Shown: positions 1 through 27,657 of the stretch, one piece after another
Layout: each line of letters starts with the position of its first letter
Position numbering within the stretch: the first letter of the stretch is position 1
Origin: an uncultured delta proteobacterium
GTDB lineage: Bacteria > RBG-13-61-14 > DRUE01
Direction: 5' to 3'
Assembly (NCBI GenBank): GCA_903930515.1
Contig: CAIYYW010000045.1
Span: forward strand, 1 to 31,298
DNA length: 31,298 nucleotides
Made by a program: the position numbers and the translations under genes
Notes under the pieces: model-generated
Databases searched by the model: none
The model's input: the letters and a program-made list of their open reading frames with translations, nothing else
Told to the model about the DNA's origin: nothing

Positions 1-1646
1 GGAGCGGCAAGACCGAGGTTTACATCCAGGCCAGCCAAATGGTTTTGAACCGGGGAAAAACCGTGCTGGTGCTGGTCCCGGAAATCGCGCTCACCCCCCA
101 GTTGATCCACCGCTTCCGCTCTCGGTTCCCCGGGGAAAAAATCGCGGTGCTCCACAGCGGGCTGACCCCGGCGGAGCGCTTTGACCAGTGGTGGCAGGTC
201 CGGCGGAAAGAGGTCTCAATGGTGATCGGGGCGCGCTCCGCGGTTTTCGCTCCGCTTAAGAACCTGGGCCTGATCGTGGTGGACGAGGAACAGGATGGGG
301 CTTACAAGCAGGATCGCGGGGTCCACTATCAGGCGCGGGATTTGGCGGTTTGGAAGAGCAGGAAGGAAAACGCGATCGCGCTCCTGGGGTCGGCCACGCC
401 CTCTTTGGAGAGCGCGTATAATGTTGAGCTGGGAAAGTATCGGTTGCTGGAATTGCCGGAGCGGGTGGATTCCCGGCCGCTTCCGGAAATTGAGATGGTT
501 GATCTCCGGAAAGGGCTTCCCGGGCCGGAATCGGATCAGCCCGAGTTCCGGATCGGGAACAAAGAACTCAGCCCGGAAAAGCGGATACCGGCCGGAGAAA
601 TTATTTCTCAGGAGCTTCGCGCGGCCCTGCTGGATAATTTCCGGAGGGGGAACCAGGCGATCATTTTCCTGAACCGGAGGGGGTTCTCTCCCACCTTGCT
701 TTGCGTCAAGTGCGGGCATCAGTTTGTCTGCCCGAACTGCTCGGTGGCGATGACCTGGCATAAGGGCCGGACTTCCCAGCAGGTGTCCGATCTTTACGGA
801 CCTCTGCCCAAGGACTCTTACCTGCTCTGTCATTACTGCGGGGCTCATCAGCCCTCGCCGACTTATTGCCCGAAATGTCTGTCGGACCAGGTGCGCGATT
901 TCGGCATCGGCACCGAGCGGCTGGAGCAGGAATTGAAAACGATCGTTCCGCAGGCGCGGGTGGCGCGGATGGACCGGGACACGATGTCCAGCCGGAGGTC
1001 TTATTTTGAACTGATCCAGCGGATGGAAATCCGCGAGATAGATATTCTGGTCGGGACCCAGATGGTCGCCAAGGGACACGACCTGGCCGGGGTGACCCTG
1101 GTGGGGGTGATCCTGGCGGACCAGTCCCTGAACATACCGGACTTCCGGAGCAGCGAGCATACCTTCCAGATCATCACCCAGGTCGCGGGCCGGTCCGGGA
1201 GGGGGGAATGGCCGGGCCGGGTGATCATCCAAAGCTTCAACCCGGACCATTACGCGATCCGGCACGCGCTCACCCACAACTACCGCGGCTTTTACCAAGA
1301 GGAAATGGCTCTGCGGAAGAGCTTCGGCTATCCGCCCTATACCCGGATCGCTATGTTCCATATTTCCGGGAACCAACTGGAGGCTGCGGACAAATCCAGC
1401 CGGGAGCTGGGAAAAATCAGCCGGAGCCTGAAAAAGCAAAAGCCCTTCCAGCAAGTCCGGATCCTGGGCCCGGCCCCCAGCCCGATCTTCCGCTTGCGCG
1501 GAAAATACCGGTTCCAGCAATTGGTCTTCTCGGCCAGCCCGAGGCAACTGGGGGATTTTGTAAGAGAGGTCACAAAAAGATTCAAAGCCGAAAGCAAGGA
1601 ATCGGCCCGGCTGGACCTGGACCGGGACCCGAGCTCTTTGCTTTAG
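1..1646 (+). CDS. priA: Primosomal replication restart helicase PriA (5' truncated)
   Basis: PriA is the superfamily 2 3'-to-5' DNA helicase that reloads the replisome at stalled forks. The reading frame is open from base 3 at the window edge and begins inside the Walker A motif (SGKT at bases 3-14), so the N-terminal DNA-binding part lies outside the window. Visible features are the Walker B/DExx box VVDEEQD (the usual H is Q here), eight cysteines in paired CxxC motifs of the zinc-binding domain (bases about 700-880), the GIGTERLEQEL motif, the helicase motif VGTQMVAKGHD and motif VI QVAGRSGRG. The C-terminal domain with GYPPY is present and the gene ends with a normal stop. Family identity is certain; only the start is missing. 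The following gene's promoter overlaps its last codons. Confidence 0.97.
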   Translation, partial: SGKTEVYIQASQMVLNRGKTVLVLVPEIALTPQLIHRFRSRFPGEKIAVLHSGLTPAERFDQWWQVRRKEVSMVIGARSAVFAPLKNLGLIVVDEEQDGAYKQDRGVHYQARDLAVWKSRKENAIALLGSATPSLESAYNVELGKYRLLELPERVDSRPLPEIEMVDLRKGLPGPESDQPEFRIGNKELSPEKRIPAGEIISQELRAALLDNFRRGNQAIIFLNRRGFSPTLLCVKCGHQFVCPNCSVAMTWHKGRTSQQVSDLYGPLPKDSYLLCHYCGAHQPSPTYCPKCLSDQVRDFGIGTERLEQELKTIVPQARVARMDRDTMSSRRSYFELIQRMEIREIDILVGTQMVAKGHDLAGVTLVGVILADQSLNIPDFRSSEHTFQIITQVAGRSGRGEWPGRVIIQSFNPDHYAIRHALTHNYRGFYQEEMALRKSFGYPPYTRIAMFHISGNQLEAADKSSRELGKISRSLKKQKPFQQVRILGPAPSPIFRLRGKYRFQQLVFSASPRQLGDFVREVTKRFKAESKESARLDLDRDPSSLL

Positions 1647-1677
1647 ACCGCCCCCCTTGACTATAATTTACAAAATG
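1638..1677 (+). promoter_or_regulatory. Predicted promoter of the flavin membrane protein, leaderless type
   Basis: A -35 TTGCTT (1638-1643), 18-nt spacer and perfect -10 TATAAT (1662-1667) are followed after 7 nt by ATG at 1675. The expected transcription start falls on or next to the start codon and there is no Shine-Dalgarno sequence. The -35 overlaps the end of priA. Confidence 0.65.
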
Positions 1678-2916
1678 CGGAAAAATTTTTGGCGTTGGAC
1701 GAAAATCGGCCTGGTTATGATCGGGGCCGGCTTGATCATTTTTTCCGACCTGAAAGACCGGAGCCGGAAACTGCGGATGCTTCCGACCCAGGCCGAGTTG
1801 GATTCGGTCCTTCCCGGCAGCCGGATCAAAGACCGGAAGGATCAGCCGATCCCGCACTATCCGGGAATGGTGATGAAGGACGGCAAACCTGTCCCGGCCG
1901 CGGCCTTGCTCACAGCCGAACTCCCGCCCGTGTTCAAGGGCTTCACCGACCAGATCAACCTCCTTTTCTCCATTGACCGGGACGGGAAGATCCTCCAGAT
2001 CAGGGTGATCAGCCAGCGTGAAACCCCGCATTATTTCCGGATGATCCGAGCTTCGGGATTCTTTGAGAAGATGATCGGGAAAAACCTCCGCGAACTTCCC
2101 GAGATCAAGGCCGTGAGCGGGGCGTCCATCAGCTCCCAGGCGATCCTTGATGACCTCCAGACCTCGGCGAGAATGGCGATGAAGGAAATATTTCACCAGC
2201 CGGTTGCGGAAGCCGGGGCGGTTTCCGCGGCTCAAATTTATTTTCAGCCCAAGATCATCGGCCTGGCCGCGATCCTGCTGATGGGTCTGATGGCCCGCTA
2301 TTATCGGAAGGGATGGTTGAGGGGGCTGGTGTTCGGAGCGAGCATCGTCGGGATCGGGGCCTGGCTGAAGACCCCGTTTTCTCTCCCGCATCTGTTCCAG
2401 ATCTTGTCCGGCCAAATCCCGTTCCGGTCCAACCCATACCTGGTGACGCTGGGCGCATTTGTAATCCTGACCACAATTATTTTCGGACCGCTCTGGTGCG
2501 CCCACCTTTGCCCTTATGCCGGCTTGCAGGAATTGCTCTCCCGGCTGGGGAAAAATTTCCGCTGGCATCCCTCCCCAAACGCCGCCCGGCTGGGCAGGCA
2601 ATTGCGCTGGCTGGTTCTATTCGCGTCGGTAGTCCTTTGCTTCGGGTTAAAAATCCGCTCCGGTTCCGAGATTGAGCCGTTCTTCCATCTTTTTTCCGGC
2701 AAGTGGACCATGCCGGGGATGACCCTGGTGGTCCTGACTTTGTCCGCAAGCTTTTTCCTGCCCCGGTTCTGGTGCAGATATTTCTGCCCAACCGGCGCCT
2801 GCTTGCTCCTGCTCAGCAGTCATCGTAAATTGTTCCGCCGAATTGAAGAGGGAATCCGGGTCAGCGGGATTGACACCGGCGGGAGCGGGGAGGAATCCTC
2901 GCGGGACAAAACCTGA
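1675..2916 (+). CDS. NosR/RnfG-like FMN-binding and CxxxCP membrane redox protein
   Basis: Predicted inner-membrane electron-transfer protein of 413 aa. An N-terminal membrane anchor (residues 10-25) is followed by an extracytoplasmic FMN-binding domain (about 60-175) with SGASISS at 148-154. This matches the S/T-G-A-T/S motif where RnfG and NosR carry covalent FMN; a Ser sits where Thr is usual. A multi-helix membrane part follows, with WCAHLCP (C275, C279) and WCRYFCPTGAC (C367, C371, C376), the paired CxxxCP signature of NosR/NapH membrane domains. No C-terminal 4Fe-4S ferredoxin domain is present. A TTG at 1657 is in frame, but it lies in the promoter; ATG 1675 fits the TATAAT spacing and gives a normal N-terminus. 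The electron donor and acceptor are unknown and no nos, nap or rnf genes are nearby. Confidence 0.85.
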   Translation: MRKNFWRWTKIGLVMIGAGLIIFSDLKDRSRKLRMLPTQAELDSVLPGSRIKDRKDQPIPHYPGMVMKDGKPVPAAALLTAELPPVFKGFTDQINLLFSIDRDGKILQIRVISQRETPHYFRMIRASGFFEKMIGKNLRELPEIKAVSGASISSQAILDDLQTSARMAMKEIFHQPVAEAGAVSAAQIYFQPKIIGLAAILLMGLMARYYRKGWLRGLVFGASIVGIGAWLKTPFSLPHLFQILSGQIPFRSNPYLVTLGAFVILTTIIFGPLWCAHLCPYAGLQELLSRLGKNFRWHPSPNAARLGRQLRWLVLFASVVLCFGLKIRSGSEIEPFFHLFSGKWTMPGMTLVVLTLSASFFLPRFWCRYFCPTGACLLLLSSHRKLFRRIEEGIRVSGIDTGGSGEESSRDKT

Positions 2917-2928
2917 GTCGGCTTGCGC

Positions 2929-4200
2929 TCATTTAACCCGGATCAAATAATAATTCTTTTTCCCGGCCCGGAGCAGAATAAAATGTTCGCTGGCCAGGTC
3001 TTTGATCCCGAGCCGATATTCCGAATCCGCGATCCGCAGGTTGTTGAGATAGACTCCGCCTTCCTTGACCTTGCGCCGGGCTTCTCCCTTGCTGGAAAAG
3101 GCCTGGGCCCGGACCAAAAGGTCCACCAGGCCGACCCCTTTTTCCAGGTCGGATTTGCCCAGATCGAAACTGGGGGCTTGGTCAAAGGCCATCAGCAGTT
3201 CGGAGTCGTAAAGCTTTTCCAGCTTCTCGCTGAACAATAGTTTACTCGCCTTTTCCGCCATGCGGCCGGATTCTTCTCCGTGAGCCATCGCGGTGGCCTC
3301 CCGGGCCAGCCTCTTCTGGGTTTCTCTTTTTTCCGGCTCTTTTTTCACCGACTCGGCGAGTTGTTCAATTTCCGGTAGCGGGATCAGGGTAAAACATTTC
3401 AGGTAATTGATCGCATCCCGGTCATCCGCCTGGATCCAGTATTGATAGTATTGATACGGGCTGGTCCGGGTCGGGTCCAGCCAGACGGTCCCCTGCTCGG
3501 TTTTTCCGAACTTGGTCCCGGCCGCGGTGGTCACCAGGGGAAAGGTCAGGCCATAGGCCTGCTTCTGCAGTTTGGCCCGGATCAGGTCTATCCCGGCCGT
3601 GATATTGCCCCATTGGTCGGACCCGCCCACCTGGAGCCGGCAGTTGAAATCCCGGCAGAGATGATAGAAGTCATAGGCCTGGAGCAACTGGTAGCAAAAC
3701 TCGGTGAAGCTAATCCCTTCCTCGCTCTCCATCCGGACCCGCACCGACTCGCGGTTGAGCATCTCGCTCAGGCGGAAATGCTTGCCGGTGTCTCTCAGGA
3801 ACTCAATGAAGTTAAGCTCTCCCAGCCAGTCTCCGTTGTTGACCATACTCACCGAGCAATCGTTTCCTCCGGCTTGCAGGAAATGCTCCAACTGCGCCTT
3901 GATCCCCCGCATATTTTTGGCGATTTGTTCGGGCAAAAGCAGCTGCCGCTCTTTGGTCTTTCCCGACGGGTCCCCGATCATCCCGGTCCCTCCGCCCACC
4001 AGCCCGATGGGCTGATGCCCGGCGCGCTTGAGATGGACCATTCCCATAATCACCAGCAGGTTTCCGATATGGAGGCTGTCCGCGGTGGGATCAAACCCGG
4101 CGTAAAACACCAGTTTTTCCTGATCCAATATTTTTCCCAGCAGCGGGGCGGTGACCTGGCTGACCAATCCCCTTCGGGCCAATTCCTCAAACACTCCCAT
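2929..4200 (-). CDS. tyrS: Tyrosine--tRNA ligase
   Basis: Class I aminoacyl-tRNA synthetase that attaches tyrosine to tRNA-Tyr in the cytoplasm. The 423-aa protein has the usual TyrRS length and order: Rossmann catalytic domain with HIGN (44-47), the tyrosine-binding GGSDQWGN (about 192-199), KFGKT (230-234) as the KMSKS-loop equivalent, then a C-terminal S4 RNA-binding domain (about 355-423). The ATG at 4200 is preceded by GGGGAGG with a spacer of about 9 nt, and upstream lies a good promoter. It is convergent with the preceding flavin protein, with a 12-bp gap and no obvious terminator. Confidence 0.97.
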   Translation of the reverse strand: MGVFEELARRGLVSQVTAPLLGKILDQEKLVFYAGFDPTADSLHIGNLLVIMGMVHLKRAGHQPIGLVGGGTGMIGDPSGKTKERQLLLPEQIAKNMRGIKAQLEHFLQAGGNDCSVSMVNNGDWLGELNFIEFLRDTGKHFRLSEMLNRESVRVRMESEEGISFTEFCYQLLQAYDFYHLCRDFNCRLQVGGSDQWGNITAGIDLIRAKLQKQAYGLTFPLVTTAAGTKFGKTEQGTVWLDPTRTSPYQYYQYWIQADDRDAINYLKCFTLIPLPEIEQLAESVKKEPEKRETQKRLAREATAMAHGEESGRMAEKASKLLFSEKLEKLYDSELLMAFDQAPSFDLGKSDLEKGVGLVDLLVRAQAFSSKGEARRKVKEGGVYLNNLRIADSEYRLGIKDLASEHFILLRAGKKNYYLIRVK

Positions 4201-4221
4201 TCCGTAAAACCTCCCCGGCTG

Positions 4222-4250
4222 ATAGTATCATTCAAAGGTCCAAGCTTCAA
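4222..4250 (-). promoter_or_regulatory. Predicted sigma70-type promoter of tyrS
   Basis: Reading the minus strand: -35 TTGAAG (4250-4245), 17-nt spacer, -10 TACTAT (4227-4222). The start site would be near 4215, giving a short leader that contains the GGGGAGG ribosome-binding site. It is divergent from the promoter at 4262-4290. Confidence 0.6.
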
Positions 4251-4261
4251 ATTTAATATTT

Positions 4262-4300
4262 TTGCAATCGCGGCCCGGGCGCGATATAATAATAGCGATG
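4262..4300 (+). promoter_or_regulatory. Predicted promoter of the zinc-ribbon gene, leaderless type
   Basis: -35 TTGCAA (4262-4267), exactly 17-nt spacer, perfect -10 TATAAT (4285-4290), then 7 nt to ATG at 4298. There is no Shine-Dalgarno sequence. This is the cleanest example of the leaderless arrangement in the window. Confidence 0.75.
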
Positions 4301-4507
4301 ATGGTCAGATGCGAAGCCTGCGGAACCGAGTATGAAAACCCGGTCAGTTCTATCTGCGACAACTGCGGAATGCGGATAACCCGGGCTATGCCCAAGGAGG
4401 CGGATAAACCGGAGTATTCAACCTGCCCGGGCTGCGGCACGCGCAACCGGGATGGGGTGCGGATTTGTTGCAATTGCGGCAATCTGATCCGGCCCAAGAC
4501 CGTCTGA
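4298..4507 (+). CDS. Small double zinc-ribbon protein
   Basis: A 69-aa protein with two CxxC...CxxC units: CEACG with CDNCG in the N-terminal half and CPGCG with CCNCG in the C-terminal half, the pattern of zinc-ribbon domains found in many small bacterial proteins. There is no membrane segment. The function is unknown; such domains often bind nucleic acid or protein partners. The start is the first of two consecutive ATG codons (4298, 4301), 7 nt after a consensus -10 and without a Shine-Dalgarno site, so translation is probably leaderless. The transglutaminase gene begins 10 nt after its stop and is probably cotranscribed. Confidence 0.8.
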   Translation: MMVRCEACGTEYENPVSSICDNCGMRITRAMPKEADKPEYSTCPGCGTRNRDGVRICCNCGNLIRPKTV

Positions 4508-4517
4508 AGCCAAGCCC

Positions 4518-6599
4518 TTGAAGCTGGAGCCGCTGATCGTATATTCCTTGTTTTCCGGCGCGCTCTTCTCCAGCCTGAGCCTGATTTTAAGCCCGCAAAT
4601 TCACCCGGCTCATAAAATCGGCCTGAGCCTGGGCTTGGCCCTGTCCTTTATTTATCAGACCCAAAGGCTGCGCCTGAGCCGGTGGTTCTTCAATTCCGGG
4701 GCGATCCTGGCGCTGGGCTCGTCCCTGATTTACGGGGTCTGGTTCGCCGAGTATCCGATCCAGGCCGCGATTTATTTTTTGGGATACCTGGTTTTGATCC
4801 GGATGTGCGAGCTGGATGCCTCGCGCGATTACAAACTCGCCCTGATCCTGAGCCTGTTTGAGATTGCCGCGGGATCCCTGATGATGGTCCAGTTCCGGTA
4901 CCTGCTTATTTTCCTGGGCTGGCTGATCTCCGCATTGTTCAGCCTGACCCTGATCACCCTCTCGGCCAAGACCACCACCGGAAAAATTCTTCCCTCCCCG
5001 GGCCGACTGTTGTCCCTGCTCGCCGGCGCCGGGATGGCCTCCCTGATCATCGGATTTTTTCTCTTCTTCCTCCTGCCCCGGGTGGGGATGAGCCTGATCA
5101 ATTTTCAACTGGGCTCCGGCCGGGGCTGGAGCGGATACAGCACCGAGATCCGGCTGGGGGAGGTCGTCAGTTTATTGGTAAACCAAACGCCGGTGATGCG
5201 GGCCAGGCTCTTGGATTATTCGCGTCCCGTTGAAGGTTTGAAATGGCGGATGCGGGCGATGGAATATTATGATAAAAACACCTGGCGGGAGCGGAGCGGA
5301 GAGATTTCCAATTTCCCGGTCTATTACAATCAGCCCACCACCATTGACGAGACCCCGCCGCAGGGCCGAAAATTGGAGCAGGAGATTTACCTGGAGCCGG
5401 ACCTCGGGTCCGATCTCCCGGCCGCGGGCTGGGTTTACGCCTACCAGGTCCCGTTCAAATTCCGGAGCCTGAATTGTTCTTCCAACCATTATTGCTCCCT
5501 GCCCGTCCCGTCCGCCGAACGGATCCATTACCTTGCTTACTCGGCGCTGCCTCAGTTTTCCGAGCAGGAAATGCGGATTTCGCTTTCGCTGATGCCGGAG
5601 GTCCTGAAGGACCGGGATTTAAAATGGGTGAACAATTTATTGCAACTGCCAAAAGGGTCTGAGTCAATCTGCGAGATGGCCCAAAAGATCGCCGGAGAGG
5701 AGTCCGACCCGGTCCGCAAAATATCCTTGATCCAGGATTTTTTCTCCGCCAACTTCCGCTACTCTTTGACCGGCCTGCCCACGGGTCCGAACCCAATGGA
5801 AGAGTTTTTATACCGGTCCCGCCGGGGCAACTGCGAATATTTCGCCAGCGCCGGCGCGCTTATGCTCCGGTGCCTGGGCATTCCCAGCCGGATCGCGGTG
5901 GGTTTTCTGGCCGGGGAGTTTAATCCGTATCAAAAATATTATCTGGTCCGCGAGAGCGACGCTCACGCCTGGGTGGAAATATATCTGCCCGGACTAGGGT
6001 TTATGGAATTCGATCCCACTCCGCCGGAAGCGCTGGGGGAGCGGACCAAATCCACCTGGCTCTGGAAGATGGTTGACCCGTTCATTTTCAGATGGAACCG
6101 ATGGGTAGTGGAATTTTCGGTCACGGACCAAATCCGGGGATTCCGGCGGGTGAAGGCTGAAGGTTACCGGCTCAGATACAACTTCCATTTTACCGCGCCC
6201 GGTCTTCGGCAGTGGGTCAGGGGACGGCCGCTCGTGAGCGGGGCAATCTTGTTATCGGCCCTGGCCGCGGTTCTGATCAGCTTCTTGCTCAGCCCGACCC
6301 GGCGCGCGGAGCGGGCTTGGATGAAAAACCTGAGCTGGTCGCAGAGGCAGGCGGCCCGGGTTTACCTGGATTTGCTCAAATTGCTCGGGACCAGGGGCTA
6401 TCCCCGGAACCCGGCCGCGACCGGGCTGGAGTTGGCGGAAAAATATTCCGGACGGCCGGAAGCCCGACAACTGATCCTGGCCGTCACCGTTTTTTATTAC
6501 CGGGCGCGGTTCGGGAGGGAAGCGGCGCTGGAAGAAAACCTGAAACAGGCGGAAGCGGACCTGGACCGCTTGAAGCGGATTATTCTTTCCGGGGAATGA
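4518..6599 (+). CDS. TgpA-type membrane transglutaminase-like protease
   Basis: A 693-aa protein of the TgpA family. About six N-terminal transmembrane helices (residues 1-195, DUF3488-like region) precede an extracytoplasmic transglutaminase-like domain with RRGNCEYFAS, YLVRESDAHAWVEIY and EFDPTPP, giving the triad C439, H483, D499. A further membrane helix (about 575-592) and a short cytoplasmic tail (DUF4129-like) follow. Family members are inner-membrane cysteine-protease/transglutaminase folds with poorly known substrates, often encoded with MoxR and DUF58 genes; these are not present here. The only early start is TTG at 4518, without a Shine-Dalgarno site and 10 nt after the zinc-ribbon stop, so the exact start is uncertain. 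Its end overlaps the convergent response-regulator gene by 20 bp. Confidence 0.88.
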   Translation: MKLEPLIVYSLFSGALFSSLSLILSPQIHPAHKIGLSLGLALSFIYQTQRLRLSRWFFNSGAILALGSSLIYGVWFAEYPIQAAIYFLGYLVLIRMCELDASRDYKLALILSLFEIAAGSLMMVQFRYLLIFLGWLISALFSLTLITLSAKTTTGKILPSPGRLLSLLAGAGMASLIIGFFLFFLLPRVGMSLINFQLGSGRGWSGYSTEIRLGEVVSLLVNQTPVMRARLLDYSRPVEGLKWRMRAMEYYDKNTWRERSGEISNFPVYYNQPTTIDETPPQGRKLEQEIYLEPDLGSDLPAAGWVYAYQVPFKFRSLNCSSNHYCSLPVPSAERIHYLAYSALPQFSEQEMRISLSLMPEVLKDRDLKWVNNLLQLPKGSESICEMAQKIAGEESDPVRKISLIQDFFSANFRYSLTGLPTGPNPMEEFLYRSRRGNCEYFASAGALMLRCLGIPSRIAVGFLAGEFNPYQKYYLVRESDAHAWVEIYLPGLGFMEFDPTPPEALGERTKSTWLWKMVDPFIFRWNRWVVEFSVTDQIRGFRRVKAEGYRLRYNFHFTAPGLRQWVRGRPLVSGAILLSALAAVLISFLLSPTRRAERAWMKNLSWSQRQAARVYLDLLKLLGTRGYPRNPAATGLELAEKYSGRPEARQLILAVTVFYYRARFGREAALEENLKQAEADLDRLKRIILSGE

Positions 6600-6942
6600 A
6601 CTTGGTGATGATCTTGATCAGGTTATCGTAATCAAAGGGCTTGAGCAGGTAGTCGTTGAACAGGTCGTCCCACTGCCCGATATTGCTCTGGGAAGTAAAG
6701 GCGATGACCGGGAGGTCCCGGTATTGCGGGTCCGCGCGCAGCAGACGGGCCGCCTCCACCCCGCCCATCACCGGCATAATGATATCCATAATCACCAGGT
6801 CCGGCCGTTCCTGCTTGATCGCCGTGACCGCCTCTCTGCCGTTATTGGCGAGGACGGTATCATACCCCTGTCGCTCCAGATGCTCGCACAGGGCCTGGAG
6901 CAGGAGTTGATTATCGTCCACAATCAATATTGTCGCGGCCAT
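6580..6942 (-). CDS. Single-domain response regulator (CheY-like receiver)
   Basis: A 120-aa stand-alone receiver domain. It shows the acidic pair in LIVDDN (D9, D10), the phosphoacceptor in VIMDIIMP, the conserved T/S in IAFTS and the lysine in LLKPFD. There is no output domain, so it must act by protein-protein contact, like CheY or Spo0F-type proteins. No histidine kinase is in the window. The ATG at 6942 lies 6 nt after a perfect TATAAT on the minus strand and has no Shine-Dalgarno sequence. The 3' end overlaps the transglutaminase gene by 20 bp on the opposite strand. Confidence 0.93.
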   Translation of the reverse strand: MAATILIVDDNQLLLQALCEHLERQGYDTVLANNGREAVTAIKQERPDLVIMDIIMPVMGGVEAARLLRADPQYRDLPVIAFTSQSNIGQWDDLFNDYLLKPFDYDNLIKIITKFIPRKE

Positions 6943-6978
6943 TTATTTATTATATCATATTTCCCCTGCCCCTGCTAA
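6940..6978 (-). promoter_or_regulatory. Predicted promoter of the response regulator, leaderless type
   Basis: Minus strand: weak -35 TTAGCA (6978-6973), 18-nt spacer, perfect -10 TATAAT (6954-6949), 6 nt to the ATG at 6942. No ribosome-binding site is present between the -10 and the start codon. Confidence 0.6.
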
Positions 6979-7009: not shown

Positions 7010-7039
7010 TTGACCGGGCATACCGGACCATCTTATTAT
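7010..7039 (+). promoter_or_regulatory. Predicted promoter of the aconitase X operon
   Basis: -35 TTGACC (7010-7015), 18-nt spacer, -10 TATTAT (7034-7039). The start site would be near 7046, only about 10 nt before ATG 7056. It is divergent from the response-regulator promoter. A direct repeat ATACCGG occurs at 6981-6987 and again inside this spacer at 7020-7026, which could be an operator, but only two copies are seen. Confidence 0.5.
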
Positions 7040-7055
7040 GTTAGGGAACAAGGCA

Positions 7056-8213
7056 ATGAAGCTGTCATCTGAAGAAAAAGAAATCCTGGAAGGCGGCCGG
7101 GGAAAGGCGCTGCAATTGGCGCTCCGGACCCTGGCGCGTTACGGCGAGGCCTTTGGCGCGGAGAGGCTGGTTGAGATCCAAAGCGCGCACCTGGCCGGGA
7201 GCTTCGGGGCTTTCCTCTACCGAACTTATTACGCGATGATCCGGCTGATGGTTGAGGAGGGCCTGAAGGTTCAAGTAACCACCACCCTCAATCCCCGTCC
7301 GATTGAAAACCCTCATTTCATTGACCGGCTGATGCTCAATCATCAGGAGTTCCTGGAACAGAGCCTGGGCCGATTGGGGGTCACCCCCAATTATTCCTGC
7401 GTCTGCTATGACCGGGAAAACCTTCCCGCGGCCGGCTCAATCATCGCCTGGGCCGAGTCCTCCGCGGTCCAGTTCGCCAACTCCGTCCTGGGCGCCCGGA
7501 CCAACCGCAACTCCGTGATGATTGACCTCTGCTCGGCCTTGACCGGGAAAACCCCCGAGTTCGGATATTTGCTGGATAAAAATCGGCGCGGCCAGGTCCT
7601 GATCAAGGTCCAGGCCAAAAGAATAGATTTCCCCTCCCTGGGATTCCTGATCGGGAAAAAAGTCGTCAACCGGGTGCCGGTGATTGAGCATCTGGAATGC
7701 TCCCGCGACGATTTGAAAAATATGGGCGCGGCAATGGCCGCTTCCGGCGCGGTCGCGCTTTTTCACATTGAGGGCGTGACTCCGGAAGCCCCCGGCCTGA
7801 AAGATATTTTTGACCGCGAGCCCTTGCAGACGATCACCATCACCGAAGCCGAGCTTAACTCCTTGCGCTCTTTTGAAAAGAACGCCCCGGAGATGGTGGT
7901 GTTCGGCTGTCCGCATCTGACGGCTGCTGAATTTAATACCATCGGCGAGCGCTATCGCGGGAAAAAGGTCAAGCTCCCAACCTATTTCTGCGTGATCCCG
8001 AGGGTCAAGCAGGAGCTTCAGGGAACTGAGCTTTACCAGGGGTTGATTGAGGCCGGGGTCCGGATCACCAGCCAATGCCCGTTAGCCACCTGGACCATCC
8101 GGATACTGGGACGCAAGACCATTTTAACCAATTCCGGCAAGCTCTATTACTATCTGGATAAAAGCGAATACGGCACGACCGAGGACTGCCTTCGGTTCAG
8201 CGGAGCAGGCTGA
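7056..8213 (+). CDS. Aconitase X catalytic (large) subunit, mevalonate-5-phosphate or hydroxyproline dehydratase type
   Basis: A 385-aa protein of the aconitase X (DUF521) family, [4Fe-4S] dehydratases. Known members are the archaeal phosphomevalonate dehydratase and bacterial cis-3-hydroxy-L-proline dehydratase. The family core IAWAESSAVQFANSVLGART (129-148) is intact, and cysteines sit at the expected cluster positions: C115/C117 (SCVCYD), C285 (FGCPH) and C341 (SQCPL). The small swivelling subunit is the separate next gene, overlapping by 1 bp. An ATG at 7038 is in frame but overlaps the predicted -10 box, so ATG 7056 is preferred. The substrate cannot be assigned: no mevalonate, UbiD-like decarboxylase or proline genes are in the window. 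Confidence 0.88.
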   Translation: MKLSSEEKEILEGGRGKALQLALRTLARYGEAFGAERLVEIQSAHLAGSFGAFLYRTYYAMIRLMVEEGLKVQVTTTLNPRPIENPHFIDRLMLNHQEFLEQSLGRLGVTPNYSCVCYDRENLPAAGSIIAWAESSAVQFANSVLGARTNRNSVMIDLCSALTGKTPEFGYLLDKNRRGQVLIKVQAKRIDFPSLGFLIGKKVVNRVPVIEHLECSRDDLKNMGAAMAASGAVALFHIEGVTPEAPGLKDIFDREPLQTITITEAELNSLRSFEKNAPEMVVFGCPHLTAAEFNTIGERYRGKKVKLPTYFCVIPRVKQELQGTELYQGLIEAGVRITSQCPLATWTIRILGRKTILTNSGKLYYYLDKSEYGTTEDCLRFSGAG

Positions 8214-8656
8214 TGAAAGAATTTAAAGGAAGGGGAATCATCGGCGGTCGGGTTCAGGGCAAGGCCCTGGTGACAGCGCATCCGCTCAACCTGACCTCCG
8301 GTCTTTCCAAGCCGCTTAACCTGTTCAACCGTCTGGCCGGGGTTTATTACGACCGCCATCACGAGCTTTATAAGCAAGACTTGTTTGATCGGATACTGGT
8401 TTTCCCGCAGACCATCGGGTCAACCTTCACCGGGATGGTGGTTTTGGAAACCATCCGGAGGGGGCGCGCGCCCAAGGCGATCATCGTCCAATCCGCGGAC
8501 CCGCTGCTCGCTTCGGGGCTGATCCTGGCCGAGGTCTGGCTCCCGCGCAAGGTCCCCTTTTTGGAAATCCCGGAGCCGGACCTGTTCAACCTGATCCGCA
8601 CCGGCGATTTGGTTGAAGTTGACGGCGATGCTGGAGTTGTGAAAATCCTGGGCTGA
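8213..8656 (+). CDS. Aconitase X swivel (small) subunit, DUF126
   Basis: A 147-aa DUF126 protein, the small swivelling domain that completes the active site of aconitase X enzymes. It has the expected GRGIIGGRVQGKALV start, the central PQTIGSTFTGMVVLE (counterpart of the GSTTGSYVL-type loop) and RAPKAIIVQSADPLLASG. Its ATG shares one base with the large-subunit TGA (TGATG), so the two are translationally coupled and likely form a heterodimer. Two-subunit organisation is typical of the archaeal-type enzymes; many bacterial ones are fused. Confidence 0.87.
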   Translation: MKEFKGRGIIGGRVQGKALVTAHPLNLTSGLSKPLNLFNRLAGVYYDRHHELYKQDLFDRILVFPQTIGSTFTGMVVLETIRRGRAPKAIIVQSADPLLASGLILAEVWLPRKVPFLEIPEPDLFNLIRTGDLVEVDGDAGVVKILG

Positions 8657-10084: not shown

Positions 10085-11017
10085 ATGGAAATTAAGGACC
10101 TGATTGAAAAACGGATCAAGGAAAACAAAATTCTGGTGGAGTTGGAATCCGGCCCCGGGCAGATTCCGGTGCTGGCCGCGGTGGGCAAGGGGCTGGCCGA
10201 GGCCTGGGAAAATTCCCTGCTCGCGCTCTGCGCCTTTGGCTGTGAAGTAAGGACCGAGTATGACCGGAAGGACCAGGCGGGGAATTATGAGGATCCTCCC
10301 AGCAAGGATTGCAGTATGCGGATGGTGGTGGAATCCCCTATGTCCGAGCCGATGATTCACCGGGCCTTCCCGGGCGGGCTGGAGGATTTGGAGGAATACC
10401 GGATGGAGGTGGTGGACGGGATCAAGGACGGCTGGATCCGCGACCCGATCGATCCCAATGACCGGCGCTGGGAATATACCTACCACGAGCGGCTGTTCGC
10501 GTATAAGAGAACCCAGGGCGAACCCGCGATTGATCAGTTGAAGGTTCTGGCGGAAAAGCTCGCGAAAACGCCTCATACCCGGAGGGCGCAGGCCATCACC
10601 TGGCAGGTCTGGATGGACCCGGAGATTGAGCATCCGCCCTGCTTGCAGAGCCTCTGGTTCCGGCTGATGCCCATTGAGAAAGATCACTACCGGCTCAACC
10701 TTAACCAGCGCTTCCGCAGCCGGGACGCTTATGACGCCGCGTTTATGAACTGCTTTGCTTTGGTATTCCTGATGGAAAAGGTCGCCCGGCTGATCCAGGA
10801 CCAGGCTGGTTTCCAGGTCAGCCTGGGAAGGTATGTGGACGAGTCGGATTCCTACCATATTTACGGACACCGATTGGATGATTTTAAAAGCAGGTTCCTG
10901 AAACAATGCCTGAATCGAAAATTCGAAGAACGCACCTGGACCCTTGAATTCGCCCAGCCTTTTTTCGACCAGGCCCGGCCCAATATCCTGGACAAGGTTA
11001 AAAAAATGAATCGCTGA
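10085..11017 (+). CDS. thyA: Thymidylate synthase, divergent ThyA superfamily
   Basis: A 310-aa protein whose C-terminal two thirds match thymidylate synthase residue by residue. It has an Arg pair R166-R167 exactly 20 residues before the nucleophile C186 (HPPC), the pyrimidine-binding R211-S212-x-D214, N222 eight residues after that Asp (as D169/N177 in E. coli ThyA), and the H258-x-Y260 pair. Asn at 222 favours dUMP over dCMP. The N-terminal third (1-150) is unlike classical ThyA and lacks an obvious Arg-rich loop; R56 or nearby may serve. It could be an archaeal-type thymidylate synthase or a nucleotide hydroxymethylase. The predicted reaction is dUMP methylation with methylene-tetrahydrofolate. 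It is the probable second gene of the serS transcript. Confidence 0.75.
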   Translation: MEIKDLIEKRIKENKILVELESGPGQIPVLAAVGKGLAEAWENSLLALCAFGCEVRTEYDRKDQAGNYEDPPSKDCSMRMVVESPMSEPMIHRAFPGGLEDLEEYRMEVVDGIKDGWIRDPIDPNDRRWEYTYHERLFAYKRTQGEPAIDQLKVLAEKLAKTPHTRRAQAITWQVWMDPEIEHPPCLQSLWFRLMPIEKDHYRLNLNQRFRSRDAYDAAFMNCFALVFLMEKVARLIQDQAGFQVSLGRYVDESDSYHIYGHRLDDFKSRFLKQCLNRKFEERTWTLEFAQPFFDQARPNILDKVKKMNR

Positions 11018-11088: not shown

Positions 11089-11286
11089 CATCTGAAGCTG
11101 ATCCGATGCGGCTAATCCTCCAAGTTCCCAGGTTGATGCTGAAGCAGAATCAGAGGAGTTACTCTTAACTTATTGAAATATAGACTTAAACAGGGGGAAA
11201 TGAGAGGAAATAATAATAGCTTCAACCTAAACTTCCAAAGACTGCGCCAACTCCCACCGGTTGAAAAATTTTTAAAAGGAGAGCGA
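11089..11286 (+). other. Long 5' leader of carD
   Basis: About 198 nt separate the predicted start site from the carD ATG, much longer than any other leader here. It contains a possible 20-codon ORF (ATG 11105 to TAA) without a Shine-Dalgarno site, and a 7-bp inverted repeat TTCAACC (11221-11227) / GGTTGAA (11259-11265) that ends 10 nt before the AAGGAG ribosome-binding site. I do not recognise a known riboswitch or leader family. Regulation through this leader is an inference. Confidence 0.4.
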
Positions 11287-11772: not shown

Positions 11773-11814
11773 GATATTTTTGCCTAGCGCCATTTTTTAA
11801 AAATTATTGCCCTG

Positions 11815-12066
11815 ATGCCCATTGACCAATACGATTCTCTGGAACTCCGCTGCCTCAAGCTGGGCGGGCAAGTGCCTTTCAAATATTGCCGGACCGTTGA
11901 CAAGCCCTTCTGCGCCAGGATCATCTCCTGCTGGGCGACTCGGATGGACATCGGGACTTTTCTGGCCGGTAATTTTTCGCCGGAACAAATTCAATCCTGC
12001 CTGGAAACGAAACAGCCGACAAAGCTGGAACAGATTTTCAAGACCATTGACAAAATCAAACCCTGA
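11815..12066 (+). CDS. Small cysteine-rich protein, unknown function
   Basis: An 83-aa protein with five cysteines (C13, C25, C33, C39, C62) in the arrangement C-x11-C-x7-C-x5-CW. I recall a small-protein type of the form CxxLGxxVxFxYC...PCxxxxxCW in various bacteria, without known function. Four cysteines in the N-terminal half could bind a metal. There is no signal peptide or membrane helix. It follows carD by 42 nt. It also has its own weak promoter-like sequence of the leaderless layout (TTGCCT 11780-11785, 16-nt spacer, AATTAT 11802-11807, 7 nt to ATG) and no Shine-Dalgarno site. Confidence 0.65.
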   Translation: MPIDQYDSLELRCLKLGGQVPFKYCRTVDKPFCARIISCWATRMDIGTFLAGNFSPEQIQSCLETKQPTKLEQIFKTIDKIKP

Positions 12067-15705: not shown

Positions 15706-15821
15706 CCACTATTGATAGCCAGGCGCTCCGCAACACATCTCTTTCCTGGTACCGTTGCTCCCTTCCGGGCCTGGCGGGGTTGGCAGGAACCGATTGTGCG
15801 GTGCCCGGCTATCAATACTGG
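15706..15821 (-). ncRNA. ffs: Bacterial SRP RNA (4.5S type)
   Basis: The minus strand contains the conserved SRP domain IV hairpin, with CAGGCCCGGAAGGGAGCA around 15755-15774: a GGAA tetraloop plus the asymmetric loop bound by Ffh. The ends form a long closing stem: a perfect 10-bp pairing of 15711-15720 with 15807-15816, extendable to 15706-15821 with one mismatch. The length of about 106-116 nt fits the short bacterial type. It lies between tRNA-Ser(GGA) and dnaX, a neighbourhood seen in many bacteria. No terminator separates it from dnaX. Confidence 0.93.
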
Positions 15822-15857: not shown

Positions 15858-15951
15858 TGGCGGAGAGAGGGGGATTTGAACCCCCGAGGCGGGTATAAGC
15901 CGCCTACACAATTTCCAATCGTGCTCCTTAAGCCAGCTCGGACATCTCTCC
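15858..15951 (-). tRNA. tRNA-Ser (anticodon GGA)
   Basis: Complete cloverleaf with acceptor stem GGAGAGA/TCTCTCC, discriminator G, encoded CCA, T-loop TTCAAAT, anticodon loop TTGGAAA (anticodon GGA) and the long variable arm typical of tRNA-Ser (GGCGG/CCGCC region). It reads UCC/UCU codons. The SRP RNA begins about 36 nt downstream, so the two may share a transcript. Confidence 0.96.
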
Positions 15952-16090: not shown

Positions 16091-16181
16091 TGGCGGAGAG
16101 AGAGGGATTTGAACCCCCGGTACCGCAATGCGGTACAGCAGATTTCGAGTCTGCCGCCATCAGCCGCTCGGCCATCTCTCC
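16091..16181 (-). tRNA. tRNA-Ser (anticodon CGA)
   Basis: Complete cloverleaf with the same acceptor stem as the neighbouring tRNA-Ser (GGAGAGA/TCTCTCC), discriminator G, encoded CCA, anticodon loop CTCGAAA (anticodon CGA, reading UCG) and a long variable arm with a 6-bp stem TACCGC/GCGGTA. It lies 103 bp downstream of tadA and 139 bp upstream of tRNA-Ser(GGA). I see no convincing own promoter. Confidence 0.96.
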
Positions 16182-16922: not shown

Positions 16923-16999
16923 TGGTGCGCCCTAAGGGAGTCGAACCCCCAGCCTTGTGGTCCGTAGCCACACGCTCTATCCATTTGAGCTAAGGGCGC
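16923..16999 (-). tRNA. tRNA-Arg (anticodon ACG)
   Basis: Complete cloverleaf with acceptor stem GCGCCCT/AGGGCGC, discriminator A, encoded CCA, D-arm TAGCTCAAATGGATAGAGC, anticodon loop CTACGGA (anticodon ACG) and T-loop TTCGACT. A34 must be deaminated to inosine to read CGU, CGC and CGA, which requires TadA, encoded just downstream. Confidence 0.96.
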
Positions 17000-20320: not shown

Positions 20321-20323
20321 CAA

Positions 20324-22754: not shown

Positions 22755-22782
22755 TTGCACTCCGTCTGATTATCGCTAAATT
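22755..22782 (+). promoter_or_regulatory. Possible promoter of the FG-GAP repeat gene
   Basis: -35 TTGCAC (22755-22760), 16-nt spacer, -10 TAAATT (22777-22782); divergent from the ATP-grasp promoter. A GGAGG at 22798-22802 lies 10 nt before ATG 22813. Confidence 0.45.
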
Positions 22783-22812
22783 CATTTAATAATCAATGGA
22801 GGTTTTTTCAGG

Positions 22813-24318
22813 ATGACTTTTTGGAAAATGATCCTGGTTTTGCTTTTTCCCGGCCTGCTTTTTGCGCAGTCCCCAACTCATTTCCGCGTGCAGGCCTTGA
22901 AGGTCCGGGGGAATATTCAGGAGGCTATCGCCGAGGACCTGGACCAGGACGGGATCAAGGAAATCGCGGTGGTGCATATTGTTGATCCCAACTCGCCGAG
23001 GCGCTTGCTCACTATTTTCTGGCCGGACCCCAATTCCAACTACCGCTCTGCTAATTCTTACGAGCTGGAAGTCCCGGCCAAATATAGCACCTACGATTTC
23101 GGAAGTCTTCCCGGAGAAAAAGAACGCGTGCTGCTTTTTTTGAGCAAAAACAGCGCTGAGTATTATCGCTGGAAAAACCATCAGCTGGAAGGCCCGACCC
23201 GGCTGTTGTCCTTTTCCAGTCAACTGGTCCAGCTCCCGGATTCCGACCGCCTGCTCAACTATGATTTTTTCTACGACTGGAACCGGGACGACTTGAACGA
23301 GCTGCTTGCGTTCCAGATCGGGGAGGCGGAAATTTTTTATTGGCAAGGGGGCAAGTGGAAGGACAATTCTCTTCCCCTGCCCTTTGAGGTGAGTTATTTA
23401 TCGTCACCTATTTTCCGCGAGGTGTATCCGCACTCGGAATTCCGGGTGACCTATTTCACCCCGAGCATTTACCTGGCGGACCTGGAAGGGGACGGCAAGC
23501 AGGAAATGTTCGCCGTTTCCAGGAACAAGGTCTGGGGTTATAAGTTGGGCGGGGACGGCGTCTACGGTTCTGAGCCTTGCCTCAAACTAGACTTGCGGAT
23601 CGCTCCGGAGGAACTCAATCCGATGGGCAGACCGGCGTCCCAGCTCAGCCTGCAGGTGACCGACTTGGACGGGGACCGATTGGCGGACCTGATCTCGAAC
23701 CACCAGCAGGGAACTTTTTTCAGCCAGAAATCGGAGTTGAAAATCTTTCTCGGAAAAGACCGCTGGGCCAACCCGAATAATCCTGCGCCCAAGCCCGGCA
23801 AGACCTACAGCTACGACGCCTGGGTGTTCGGGCCCCTGGTCAAGGACATCAATGCCGATCATCGGCCGGACCTGATTGTGCCCACGGTTGAAATGGGAAT
23901 GATTGATACCGTGAAGGGTTTGGTCGCGCGCGACTTCCCGGTGACTTTCCGCTATTACCTGGCCAATGATCGCGCCCTCCCGGACCTTCCAACCGGATCG
24001 GACCGCGTGGTCCTCCATATTGACTTGGGCCAGGGCCGGATGATGGGAGGAATCCCCAACATCATTGGAGACTTCAACGGCGACGGGGTTGACGACCTGG
24101 TTTTCGGAAAGAGCGAGAAGGAACTGGTGATTTTGATCAAGGATAAAAACGGCCAGAAAACCAATCTTCAGGAAACCGTCCAGATCCCCACTTCCCTTAT
24201 GCCTTATGTGGAAGACCTGAACGGAGACCATAAATCCGACTTGATCCTGACCTATTCCCAGAAAGACCCGGCGCGCAAGGGCGAATTCAATGTTCTGATC
24301 AACCAGGGCAATTGGTGA
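22813..24318 (+). CDS. Secreted FG-GAP/VCBS repeat protein
   Basis: A 501-aa predicted exported protein. The N-terminus (KMILVLLFPGLLFAQS, about 5-20) is a Sec signal peptide with probable cleavage near AQ-S. The mature part contains at least six FG-GAP/VCBS-type calcium loops: DLDQDGIKEI, DLEGDGKQEM, DLDGDRLADL, DINADHRPDL, DFNGDGVDDL and DLNGDHKSDL, consistent with an integrin-like beta-propeller. There is no C-terminal sorting signal or membrane anchor, so it is probably periplasmic or released. The role is unknown; such propellers bind polysaccharide or protein ligands. GGAGG supports ATG 22813. Confidence 0.85.
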   Translation: MTFWKMILVLLFPGLLFAQSPTHFRVQALKVRGNIQEAIAEDLDQDGIKEIAVVHIVDPNSPRRLLTIFWPDPNSNYRSANSYELEVPAKYSTYDFGSLPGEKERVLLFLSKNSAEYYRWKNHQLEGPTRLLSFSSQLVQLPDSDRLLNYDFFYDWNRDDLNELLAFQIGEAEIFYWQGGKWKDNSLPLPFEVSYLSSPIFREVYPHSEFRVTYFTPSIYLADLEGDGKQEMFAVSRNKVWGYKLGGDGVYGSEPCLKLDLRIAPEELNPMGRPASQLSLQVTDLDGDRLADLISNHQQGTFFSQKSELKIFLGKDRWANPNNPAPKPGKTYSYDAWVFGPLVKDINADHRPDLIVPTVEMGMIDTVKGLVARDFPVTFRYYLANDRALPDLPTGSDRVVLHIDLGQGRMMGGIPNIIGDFNGDGVDDLVFGKSEKELVILIKDKNGQKTNLQETVQIPTSLMPYVEDLNGDHKSDLILTYSQKDPARKGEFNVLINQGNW

Positions 24319-24323
24319 AACCG

Positions 24324-24392
24324 CGGTGAAGGGTGAAAGGTAAACGGCATCGCGCCTGAAGGCGCTCGCACATTCGTGAACCGTGAACCGTC
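24324..24392. repeat. Inward-facing heptamer arrays with central hairpin
   Basis: Plus strand from 24324: CGGTGAA GGGTGAA, then AGGTAAA and CGG, at 7-nt spacing to 24347. Minus strand: two perfect tandem copies of GGTTCAC (24389-24376). Between them lies a GCGCC-TGAA-GGCGC hairpin (24352-24365). The element occupies the spacer between the FG-GAP gene and the GT2 gene; the hairpin has no T-tract, so terminator function is doubtful. Confidence 0.6.
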
Positions 24393-24413
24393 CAATGCGC
24401 GCCGCGCTTCCGA

Positions 24414-24452
24414 TTGCTTTAATCCGGAACTGAAAATAAAATATGTTCAATG
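24414..24452 (+). promoter_or_regulatory. Predicted promoter of the GT2 gene, leaderless type
   Basis: -35 TTGCTT (24414-24419), 17-nt spacer, -10 TAAAAT (24437-24442), 7 nt to ATG at 24450. No Shine-Dalgarno sequence is present. Confidence 0.65.
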
Positions 24453-25412
24453 CCCAAGGTCAGCGCGATCATTTGTGTTTATAATCAGCCCCTGGTAAAG
24501 GAAGCGATTGCCAGCGTGCTCGCTCAAACCTATCCGGATTACGAACTGATCGTTATTGACGACGGGTCCACAGATGACACCGGGAAAATCCTCTCCGATT
24601 ATCGGGACCGGGCGCGGATAGTTAGCCAGAAAAACCAGGGGATCGCCCGGGCGAGGAACCGGGGCTTGAGCCTGGCCAATGGTGATTTGATCGCGTTCCT
24701 GGACGCGGATGATCTCTGGCTTCCGCAATACCTGGCCCGGCAGGTGGAATTTTTGGACACCCATCCTCAATATCCGCTCTCATTTACCGACGGCTGGTTT
24801 ATCCGGCAGGAACAGGTCCCATTGCGGCTGGAGTCTCTCAAGCCCTATTTTTCATATTATCCCGCTCCCTCGGCCGGGAAATCGGTTGAGAATTTTTTCC
24901 AGACCCCGATCATCACCTCGCTGCTGATGTTGCGGCGATTTTTTTTCAATCAAGCGGGGTTTTTCACGGACGATTTGAAAATCCACGAGGATGCCGACCT
25001 CTTGCTCCGGGGGTTGGAGCAGGGGTTTGAATTCGGCTTTTTGGATCAGCCGCTGGGGATCAAGCGCCAACTCAGCTCCGGGCTGTCTCAGGACGAGTTG
25101 GAATCTTACCTTGATGCCCGCGAGATTCATAAGATGAGCTGGCAAAGGAGCAAGCGACTCAAGCCCTATCTTCGCAAGGGCCTTCCGGAACTGGACCGGA
25201 CCCTGGCCCGGATCTATTTTGAAAAGGGAGAGTTCCGGGCGGGAAGATTTTTTTTATGGGAAGCCCTTAAGTTCAAGCCCTGGTCGGTCCGGACCTTGTT
25301 GGTCTGGCTGATTTCTTTTTTGCCCTTCTCGCTTTCCGGCTCTTTGATTTACCGCGGCCTGCCGGTTTACAAGAAATGGAAATCAACGGGAGCGGAAAAG
25401 GGTCAGGGCTGA
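24450..25412 (+). CDS. Family 2 glycosyltransferase
   Basis: A 320-aa cytoplasmic GT-A fold transferase that uses a nucleotide-sugar donor. The N-terminus VSAIICVYNQPLVKEAI, the VIDDGSTDDT motif (about 36-45), GIARARNRGL and the DxD-type LDADD (about 84-88) are classical GT2. A C-terminal region (about 265-310) includes a hydrophobic stretch that could associate with membrane. The donor sugar cannot be predicted, although GDP-rhamnose enzymes lie 5 kb away. It is preceded by a leaderless-type promoter. Its last 30 bp overlap the convergent spermidine-synthase-like gene. Confidence 0.9.
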   Translation: MPKVSAIICVYNQPLVKEAIASVLAQTYPDYELIVIDDGSTDDTGKILSDYRDRARIVSQKNQGIARARNRGLSLANGDLIAFLDADDLWLPQYLARQVEFLDTHPQYPLSFTDGWFIRQEQVPLRLESLKPYFSYYPAPSAGKSVENFFQTPIITSLLMLRRFFFNQAGFFTDDLKIHEDADLLLRGLEQGFEFGFLDQPLGIKRQLSSGLSQDELESYLDAREIHKMSWQRSKRLKPYLRKGLPELDRTLARIYFEKGEFRAGRFFLWEALKFKPWSVRTLLVWLISFLPFSLSGSLIYRGLPVYKKWKSTGAEKGQG

Positions 25413-27620
25413 GCCTAATCCCGCCAGGATCAGGAGCGCGAAGAAGAAGAGGGAAAATTCCAGGCCGAAGAGCGGGATCAGGATCACCGAAGTCAGGACC
25501 GCGCCGAGGCTGCCGCCGAAATGGTCCCAGGCATTGATCCAGCCGGCGATAAGTCCGGTCCCGGCCCGGCTCCGGCGCGTGAATAAATACGCGGAAAGCG
25601 GGAAGCAGATTCCTGAAAAAAATGCCGTGGCGATCAATAAAACCAGGACGATACCCAGGGTGACCGGCCCGCCCAGGGGATGGTGGGACAGGGATCGGAG
25701 GACCGGGACGCAAAGGATCATCACCAGGGCTTCGGAAACAAGCGTTAGGGTCAGCCCCGCGATCGGCCAAAGCTGTAATTTAGATTGGAGCTTTTGGAAG
25801 GCGTATGCGCCCAGAGCCAGGCCGGCCATAAATCCCGAGATCAAAATCCCGATCAGGTTGAAGACATATCCGTAGCAGACCTGGAAGGCGAGCATCAACA
25901 CCAGCTCGGAGCCGATCCCGGCCAGGCCGATGGCAAAGATGGAGATGATTGCCAAAGCCCTTTCTCCCTGCCAAAACCCCAGCAACAGGCTGAGCAGCAG
26001 GAACGCGGCCAGGCCGATCAGCAACGGCGGCTTGCCGATCTCAAGAATTTTCTTCATTGATCCGCGCCAATGCGGGTTGGCCTGCTCCAGCCAGAGCAGG
26101 GTGGAAAGATAGTAGCCGCGCGGTTTCAAATCAGTGTTGGCCGGCTGGTTTTGGAAACGGCGGATGGAACTCCGGATGGATCGCAAACGCTCCGGGCTGA
26201 GGTTGTCTTTGAGATAATATTCCCGCACAAACCTGGTCTCCACCCCGCGCCTCTTCAGCTCGGCCACAATCCGGTCCGGATTTTCCGTAAGCAGATCGCT
26301 CGATCGGCTCGCGACCAGGAAGTTCCGGCTCAGGGGCAGGAGCGCGATCTTCGGAAACACCGGCTCCAAGCTGGCCAGGGTATTGGCCAGGAGCGAGGCC
26401 TCGGCGTCGGAAAGGTAATTCCCGGAGATTCCAATCCCGAACCCCAGCACTCCTTTCGGGGTCAGCCGGTCCCGGACCAGCTCGAAAAAATCGCGGGTGT
26501 AATACCGGTTCAGGCCCGCGGTTTCCGGGTCGGGCAGATTGAGGATGATGGCGTCAAACCGCTCGCTGGTTTCGCGCAAAAATATCCGGGCGTCCTGGTG
26601 AAGGATCTGGAGCCGCGGATCCTTTTCCGCGGGTCCGAATTCGGGCAAATATTTCTCCTCCAGCACGGTCAATGCCGGATCAATTTGCAAGTAAACCAGC
26701 TCTTGCGCCGGGTGCTTGAAAATTTCTTTCAGCGCCGGGGTTAATCCTCCGCCGATCAGCAAAACCTTTTTCGGATTTTCAACCATCGCCAGCGGGAGGT
26801 GGATCGCCTGCTCAAACAACTCCGGGTTGGGAGAACTGAAAGCGGGCAAGCCGTCCAAAAAGAAATTGACCTGGCCCCCGGAACGAGTCACCGTGATGGT
26901 AGAGTATTTGCTCTCCTCTTCCATAACCACCTGCTGCCCCTGCCAGCGGGCTTCGGTAAGAATATTTTCCAGACGCCCGGAAAATGCCAGGAGCAATCCG
27001 AAAGCGATCAGGCCGGCGAAAAACATCGCGGTTTTTTTTCGGCCCTCCAGTCCGAGGGCTCCCGCGGCCCAGATCAGGGATCCGCAAATCACGACCTGGG
27101 CGAAGGCCGGGACCCGGCCGGCGAGAGCGAAGCTGAAGACGATCCCGGCCGCGGCCGCCCCGAGCGCTTCCCATAAATAAAGCCGGACCAGGTTGCTCAC
27201 GCCCTCTTCCAGCATCCGGGCCGAGTAATTAAAGGCCGCGCCGAGCAAGAGGCAGGCGGGAGCGGAGATCAAAAAACCGGCCGCGATGATCCGGCCCAAT
27301 CCCGGCATGGCCGCGGGATTGAACCGGAAAAGGTCTCGGGCCAGCCAGGTGGACGCGGCGCTGAGCAGGAACAGTATTGCGCAAAGAAAAAGTATTTTGG
27401 CAAAGGTTGATCCGGGGTTCCGGCTTTGGTCCGAGATCCGGCTGAAGAGAAAACCGCCCACCCCGGTCCAGAACATCCATCCGGCGAAAAGCGCTCCGAT
27501 GGTTAGCTCATTTCCATAGAACACCGCGAGCAATCTCCGGATCAAAATCACCTGGGCCAGGAGCGACACCGCTCCATAAAGAAAGTATATCAGTCTGGCC
27601 CTGGCCCCGGCTTGGTCCAT
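25383..27620 (-). CDS. Membrane-embedded spermidine synthase-like protein
   Basis: A 745-aa protein with about seven N-terminal membrane helices, a central Rossmann methyltransferase-like SpeE domain (about 235-480) and about seven C-terminal helices. This is the fused transporter/spermidine-synthase type found in many bacteria, whose activity is mostly unknown. The SpeE-like nucleotide loop is LLIGGGL (usually GGGDG), followed by LQIDPALTVLEEKYLP, LHQDARIFL and IILNLPDPETAGLNRYYT, where Asn replaces the usual first Asp of the DxxDP region. Loss of these acids suggests that it is not a standard aminopropyltransferase. The start is ATG 27620, 7 nt after a -10 (TATATC); the in-frame upstream start at 27641 lies inside the promoter. 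It overlaps the GT2 gene tail by 30 bp. Confidence 0.82.
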   Translation of the reverse strand: MDQAGARARLIYFLYGAVSLLAQVILIRRLLAVFYGNELTIGALFAGWMFWTGVGGFLFSRISDQSRNPGSTFAKILFLCAILFLLSAASTWLARDLFRFNPAAMPGLGRIIAAGFLISAPACLLLGAAFNYSARMLEEGVSNLVRLYLWEALGAAAAGIVFSFALAGRVPAFAQVVICGSLIWAAGALGLEGRKKTAMFFAGLIAFGLLLAFSGRLENILTEARWQGQQVVMEEESKYSTITVTRSGGQVNFFLDGLPAFSSPNPELFEQAIHLPLAMVENPKKVLLIGGGLTPALKEIFKHPAQELVYLQIDPALTVLEEKYLPEFGPAEKDPRLQILHQDARIFLRETSERFDAIILNLPDPETAGLNRYYTRDFFELVRDRLTPKGVLGFGIGISGNYLSDAEASLLANTLASLEPVFPKIALLPLSRNFLVASRSSDLLTENPDRIVAELKRRGVETRFVREYYLKDNLSPERLRSIRSSIRRFQNQPANTDLKPRGYYLSTLLWLEQANPHWRGSMKKILEIGKPPLLIGLAAFLLLSLLLGFWQGERALAIISIFAIGLAGIGSELVLMLAFQVCYGYVFNLIGILISGFMAGLALGAYAFQKLQSKLQLWPIAGLTLTLVSEALVMILCVPVLRSLSHHPLGGPVTLGIVLVLLIATAFFSGICFPLSAYLFTRRSRAGTGLIAGWINAWDHFGGSLGAVLTSVILIPLFGLEFSLFFFALLILAGLGSALTLFRSR

Positions 27621-27657
27621 CCGTCCAGATATAGCGAACAAGTGCCGGGCCTGTCAA
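27618..27657 (-). promoter_or_regulatory. Predicted promoter of the spermidine synthase-like gene, leaderless type
   Basis: Minus strand: perfect -35 TTGACA (27657-27652), 18-nt spacer, -10 TATATC (27633-27628), 7 nt to ATG at 27620. No Shine-Dalgarno sequence is present. Confidence 0.65.

Follow-up and report, generated by a model that had tools for sequence, protein, structure and literature searches.

In the genome examined here, at least 2–5% of the genes are very probably transcribed from sigma-70-type promoters into mRNAs that are leaderless or nearly so (probability of about 0.86, judged from sequence), beside Shine-Dalgarno initiation, the motifs of which are found at about 43% of genes (background 9%). 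The promoters would be of the housekeeping (sigma-70/RpoD) type, with a -10 hexamer that ends 6–8 nt before the start codon, a distance referred to as the gap below. RNA polymerase normally initiates about 7 nt past the -10 element, so that with such gaps the first transcribed base would be the A of the start codon or lie one to two bases earlier. The resulting mRNA would carry no Shine-Dalgarno motif and would contact the ribosome through its 5′ start codon, presumably by the route used in other bacteria (70S ribosomes or 30S-IF2-tRNA). The actual 5′ end and the route to the ribosome are points that we infer from established knowledge.

The analysed window comprises 31,298 nucleotides of contig C45 and belongs to a MAG of 3.65 Mb in 401 contigs (G000), which was compared with a relative of the same genus (G001) and a relative of the same order (G002). 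A search for 16S rRNA, directed at the anti-Shine-Dalgarno sequence of its 3′ end, found none in G000 or G001, and the matches in G002 end at model position 1335. The tyrS region of G002 showed 100% DNA identity to Deltaproteobacteria bacterium RBG_13_61_14. Since G000 and G002 share their order, G000 is placed in the candidate phylum RBG-13-61-14, which corresponds to Candidatus Coxosiota in PMC11382960, where it has three genomes of 3.65–4.74 Mb. The sample used for statistics covers 771 kb of G000 outside the window, i.e. about 21–22% of the genome, with 552 called genes. These were called from codon usage alone, by a caller blind to promoter and Shine-Dalgarno signals and with no protein evidence. 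The window itself holds 25 called genes, and the 69-aa zinc-ribbon gene at 4298 was overlooked by the codon-usage caller. Hexamers were scored with a standard -10 matrix.

For the window, the original prediction had described five genes with a leaderless promoter layout and a weaker sixth, and the hexamers, spacers and gaps of all six are present in the sequence (Table 1). The layouts at 1675, 4298, 6942 (minus strand) and 24450 are graded as strong. That of 6942 additionally features an extended -10 element (TGA-TATAAT), which had gone unmentioned. The fifth, at 27620 (minus strand), is intermediate and retained as probable only, with a perfect -35 element and a weak -10 hexamer that misses the near-invariant final T. 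The sixth, at 11815, was dropped as a leaderless promoter in G000: AATTAT is unusable as a -10 element, and no TANNNT or otherwise acceptable hexamer lies 6–8 nt before the start. When the strict -10 score is applied, 3 of the 25 window genes have the layout, a share above that in the sample.

A Shine-Dalgarno motif is absent at all six candidates, as predicted for the leaderless set, and is found at tyrS, dnaX, tadA, carD, the fadD-like gene and the ATP-grasp gene, in line with the claim that two initiation modes coexist. Immediately ahead of dnaX, and sharing its strand, lies a small SRP RNA (RF00169), after which come tRNA-Ser(GGA), tRNA-Ser(CGA), tadA and tRNA-Arg(ACG). Further features of the window are Aconitase X large and swivel domains in two adjoining genes and a thymidylate-synthase-like protein that covers its family in part only.

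Table 1 Features of the window (gap, distance in nt between the -10 hexamer and the start codon; N, spacer length in nt)
Feature	Coordinates	Strand	Promoter-start unit or site	Elements	-10 score
FMN_bind/Fer4_5 membrane protein gene	1675–2916	+	1638..1677	-35 TTGCTT (1638–1643), N18, -10 TATAAT (1662–1667), gap 7, ATG (1675)	6.0
69-aa zinc-ribbon protein gene, divergent from tyrS	4298–4507	+	4262..4300	-35 TTGCAA (4262–4267), N17, -10 TATAAT (4285–4290), gap 7, ATG ATG	6.0
Lone response regulator receiver gene	6942–6580	-	6940..6978	-35-like TTAGCA (6978–6973), N18, -10 TATAAT (6954–6949), gap 6, ATG (6942)	6.0
Glycosyltransferase family 2 gene	24450–25412	+	24414..24452	-35 TTGCTT (24414–24419), N17, -10 TAAAAT (24437–24442), gap 7, ATG (24450)	5.1
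Membrane protein gene with spermidine-synthase domain	27620–25383	-	27618..27657 (probable)	-35 TTGACA (27657–27652), N18, -10 TATATC (27633–27628), gap 7, ATG (27620)	1.0
83-aa ORF (sixth candidate, dropped)	11815–12066	+	11780..11817	TTGCCT-N16-AATTAT-N7-ATG	
Contrast site upstream of tyrS		-	4201..4220	Shine-Dalgarno GGGGAGG	
Contrast site upstream of the CarD gene		+	11272..11286	Shine-Dalgarno AAGGAG	
SRP RNA/tRNA features	15714–15810, 15858–15951, 16091–16181, 16923–16999	-			
Aconitase X large and swivel domains	7038–8656			PF04412, PF01989	
Thymidylate-synthase-like protein	10085–11017			PF00303 (E 3e-9)	

The arrangement of these genes also bears on the explanation that survives best besides leaderless initiation, namely that extra promoters exist upstream, the leaderless mRNA being one isoform while most of the protein is made from longer transcripts. 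This would be compatible with the sequence, and the gene at 1675, 28 nt downstream of priA on the same strand, could be read through. Longer transcripts would find no Shine-Dalgarno motif, however, and the remaining strong cases are divergent or located 97–131 nt away from the neighbouring gene, so that we consider this explanation unlikely.

Enrichment at gene starts provides evidence from outside the window. The original prediction had called for a scan for -10 hexamers 6–8 nt before starts, and compared with other positions in the sample (~22% of the genome) they were indeed enriched. Good -10 hexamers at gaps of 6–8 nt numbered 15 with the window excluded, compared to 5.0 expected (552 genes, P = 2e-4), and 18 with the window included, compared to 4.8 expected (P = 3e-6). 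For the gaps from 0 to 10, counts of 1, 0, 1, 1, 1, 0, 8, 6, 4, 5 and 3 were obtained (window included; background 1.6 per gap). The near-absence at gaps 0–5 and the sharp onset at gap 6 fit a promoter whose start point is the start codon. Gaps 9–10 are also mildly enriched, so some transcripts may carry leaders of 2–4 nt.

Other motif definitions yielded a range of results. TANNNT at gaps 6–8 was found 32 times in G000 without the window (17.8 expected, P = 0.0016). Outside the window, an ATG located 6–8 nt after an exact TATAAT is a called start in 6/8 cases, compared to 16/105 for other gaps (P = 6e-4). The raw count of TATAAT-N6-8-ATG irrespective of gene context showed no peak, indicating that the signal is confined to gene starts and the class a minority. 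Over the whole genome, 84 such matches compare with 16 for a reversed-pattern control, which is of different composition and hence uninformative. A looser -10 definition (one mismatch to TATAAT) diluted the enrichment to P = 0.05, or P = 0.10 with the window excluded. The excess at gaps 6–8 corresponds to about 2% of genes with the strict matrix and 3–5% with TANNNT, in both G000 and G002. These values are lower bounds because of start-calling errors, and the layout is not general but limited to a few percent of the genes.

The pattern recurs in the same-order relative, in which TANNNT at gaps 6–8 was found 18 times (6.0 expected, P = 6e-5), while the small sample of the same-genus relative alone (50 genes) gave no enrichment. 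Deinococcus deserti is a species known for leaderless mRNA. With the same script, 250 kb of its plasmid 1 yielded a peak (14 vs 2.1 expected, P = 7e-8), and 250 kb of Escherichia coli K-12 yielded none (8 vs 9.3).

Genes with a -10 hexamer at gaps 6–8 share further promoter properties. A -35 element 16–18 nt from the -10 hexamer, the mark of the sigma-70 type, is present at the genes of the window, and the set as a whole is enriched for it: with the window excluded, the mean -35 score at spacers of 16–18 nt was 2.28, compared to -0.48 at control offsets and -0.64 for other genes. The enrichment is significant at P = 2e-5 for 11 genes and at P = 2e-8 for 18 genes under a looser cut-off. Shine-Dalgarno motifs were detected at 0/18 of the gap 6–8 genes and at 239/534 of the others (P = 4e-5, window excluded). 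Neither the -35 enrichment nor the lack of Shine-Dalgarno motifs was observed for -10 hexamers at gaps 1–3, 11–13, 16–18 and 30–32. None of the 14 strict cases, the three of the window included, is operon-internal (at most 25 nt from a same-strand upstream gene), compared to 239 of 563 other genes. Thus, -10 hexamers above background at 6–8 nt, missing Shine-Dalgarno motifs and a position at the head of transcription units coincide, as is typical for TA-led leaderless genes.

The second alternative is that the reader singled out hexamers that are chance A+T-rich matches close to start codons. A+T richness does climb ahead of start codons, the hexamers at 11815 and 27620 (TATATC) are weak, and the raw TATAAT counts have no peak. 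The restriction of the peak to gaps 6–10, the -35 partners, the missing Shine-Dalgarno motifs and the conservation between genomes nevertheless refute chance as a general account, and we regard it as very improbable beyond the site at 11815, which it still explains best.

All four strong layouts of the window are present in G001, with gaps of 7–8 nt. The orthologue of 1675 reads TTGCTT-N18-TATAAT-N7-ATG and that of 4298 reads TTGCAA-N17-TATAAT-N8-ATG; both elements are identical to those in G000 in each pair, with spacer identities of 5/18 and 3/17, respectively. For these two genes, it is clear from the alignments that the -10 and -35 elements were kept while the spacer diverged, although the -35 element of 1675 overlaps the final codons of priA, so that its conservation may partly reflect coding. 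The orthologues of 24450 (TTGCCT-N17-TACAAT-N7-ATG) and 6942 (TGA-TATAAT-N7-ATG, with a less clear -35 element) are weaker evidence of selection, since their spacers are also fairly similar (12/17 and 12/16). The G001 orthologue of 1675 aligned over 401/413 residues with one in-frame TAG reported, and could be a copy with a shorter C-terminus or a disrupted one.

The start codons align between G000 and G001 in the membrane protein (MRKNFW/MRKKLW), the zinc-ribbon protein (MMVRCEACG/MKVKCEACG), the glycosyltransferase (MPKVSAIICV/MSKVSAIICV) and the response regulator (MAATILIVDD/MSSLIMIVDD). That the promoters are real and the start codons wrong, with translation beginning downstream behind an ordinary leader and Shine-Dalgarno motif, is the least probable explanation and hardly credible: the sample starts were called without protein evidence, but the G001 orthologues align from the first codon and later starts would truncate conserved domains.

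The orthologue of 27620 is cut by a contig end in G001 and reads TAAAAT-N6-ATG in G002. The 83-aa protein encoded at 11815 has no Pfam match and no counterpart was found for it in G001; its G002 counterpart shows 42% identity and is preceded by TGATAACCT-N6-ATG. The response regulator orthologue in G002 features a leader with AAGGAG. Judged by these upstream regions, the gene has switched initiation mode between orthologues, from a predicted leaderless start in G000 and G001 to a Shine-Dalgarno-led one in G002 or vice versa. A far-reaching and rather doubtful extension of the leaderless reading would be that a defined gene subset has kept this mode with near-consensus promoters over the long term in the candidate phylum, while single genes switch, possibly enabling separate control of both sets via initiation factors or the ribosome state.

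The mechanism is already well known in other bacteria, and what is new is its occurrence at the level of this phylum. In the literature searched, where the phylum is rarely named, no description of leaderless initiation in RBG-13-61-14 was found. The results extend leaderless initiation to a candidate phylum with only a handful of genomes, in which gene finders relying on Shine-Dalgarno motifs only can assign wrong starts or overlook short genes such as the zinc-ribbon gene at 4298. They also provide orthologue pairs with conserved promoter elements but drifting spacers, as well as one gene with a change of mode.

A survey of 953 bacterial genomes detected TA-led leaderless genes in 207 (Zheng et al. 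2011, PMC3160421). Such genes lack a Shine-Dalgarno motif, have a -10-like signal some 10 bp ahead of the start and occur alongside SD-led ones; the signal reads TAtaaT in medium-GC genomes, and orthologues differ in initiation mode (PMC3160421). G000 resembles these genomes in its TAtaaT-type signal, the missing Shine-Dalgarno motif, the SD-led genes alongside and the mode switch, but its phylum is not listed in that survey, and its proportion is below the 20–40% of Actinobacteria and Deinococcus-Thermus (PMC3160421). The GeneMarkS-2 classification, as presented in PMC9581028, has a class of bacterial species with leaderless transcription (Lomsadze et al. 2018) and rests on representative genomes. 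In Deinococcus-Thermus, the -10 motif is mostly located about 6–7 bp before the ORF, giving leaderless mRNA, with GGAG in other genes and TANNNT in nearly one third of genes (2025, PMC12340547). G000 shares the -10 element adjoining the start, the leaderless layout and the Shine-Dalgarno motifs in other genes. It belongs to another lineage, its motif is closer to TATAAT, the -35 element is kept and the layout concerns a few percent of the genes, compared to about one third with TANNNT there.
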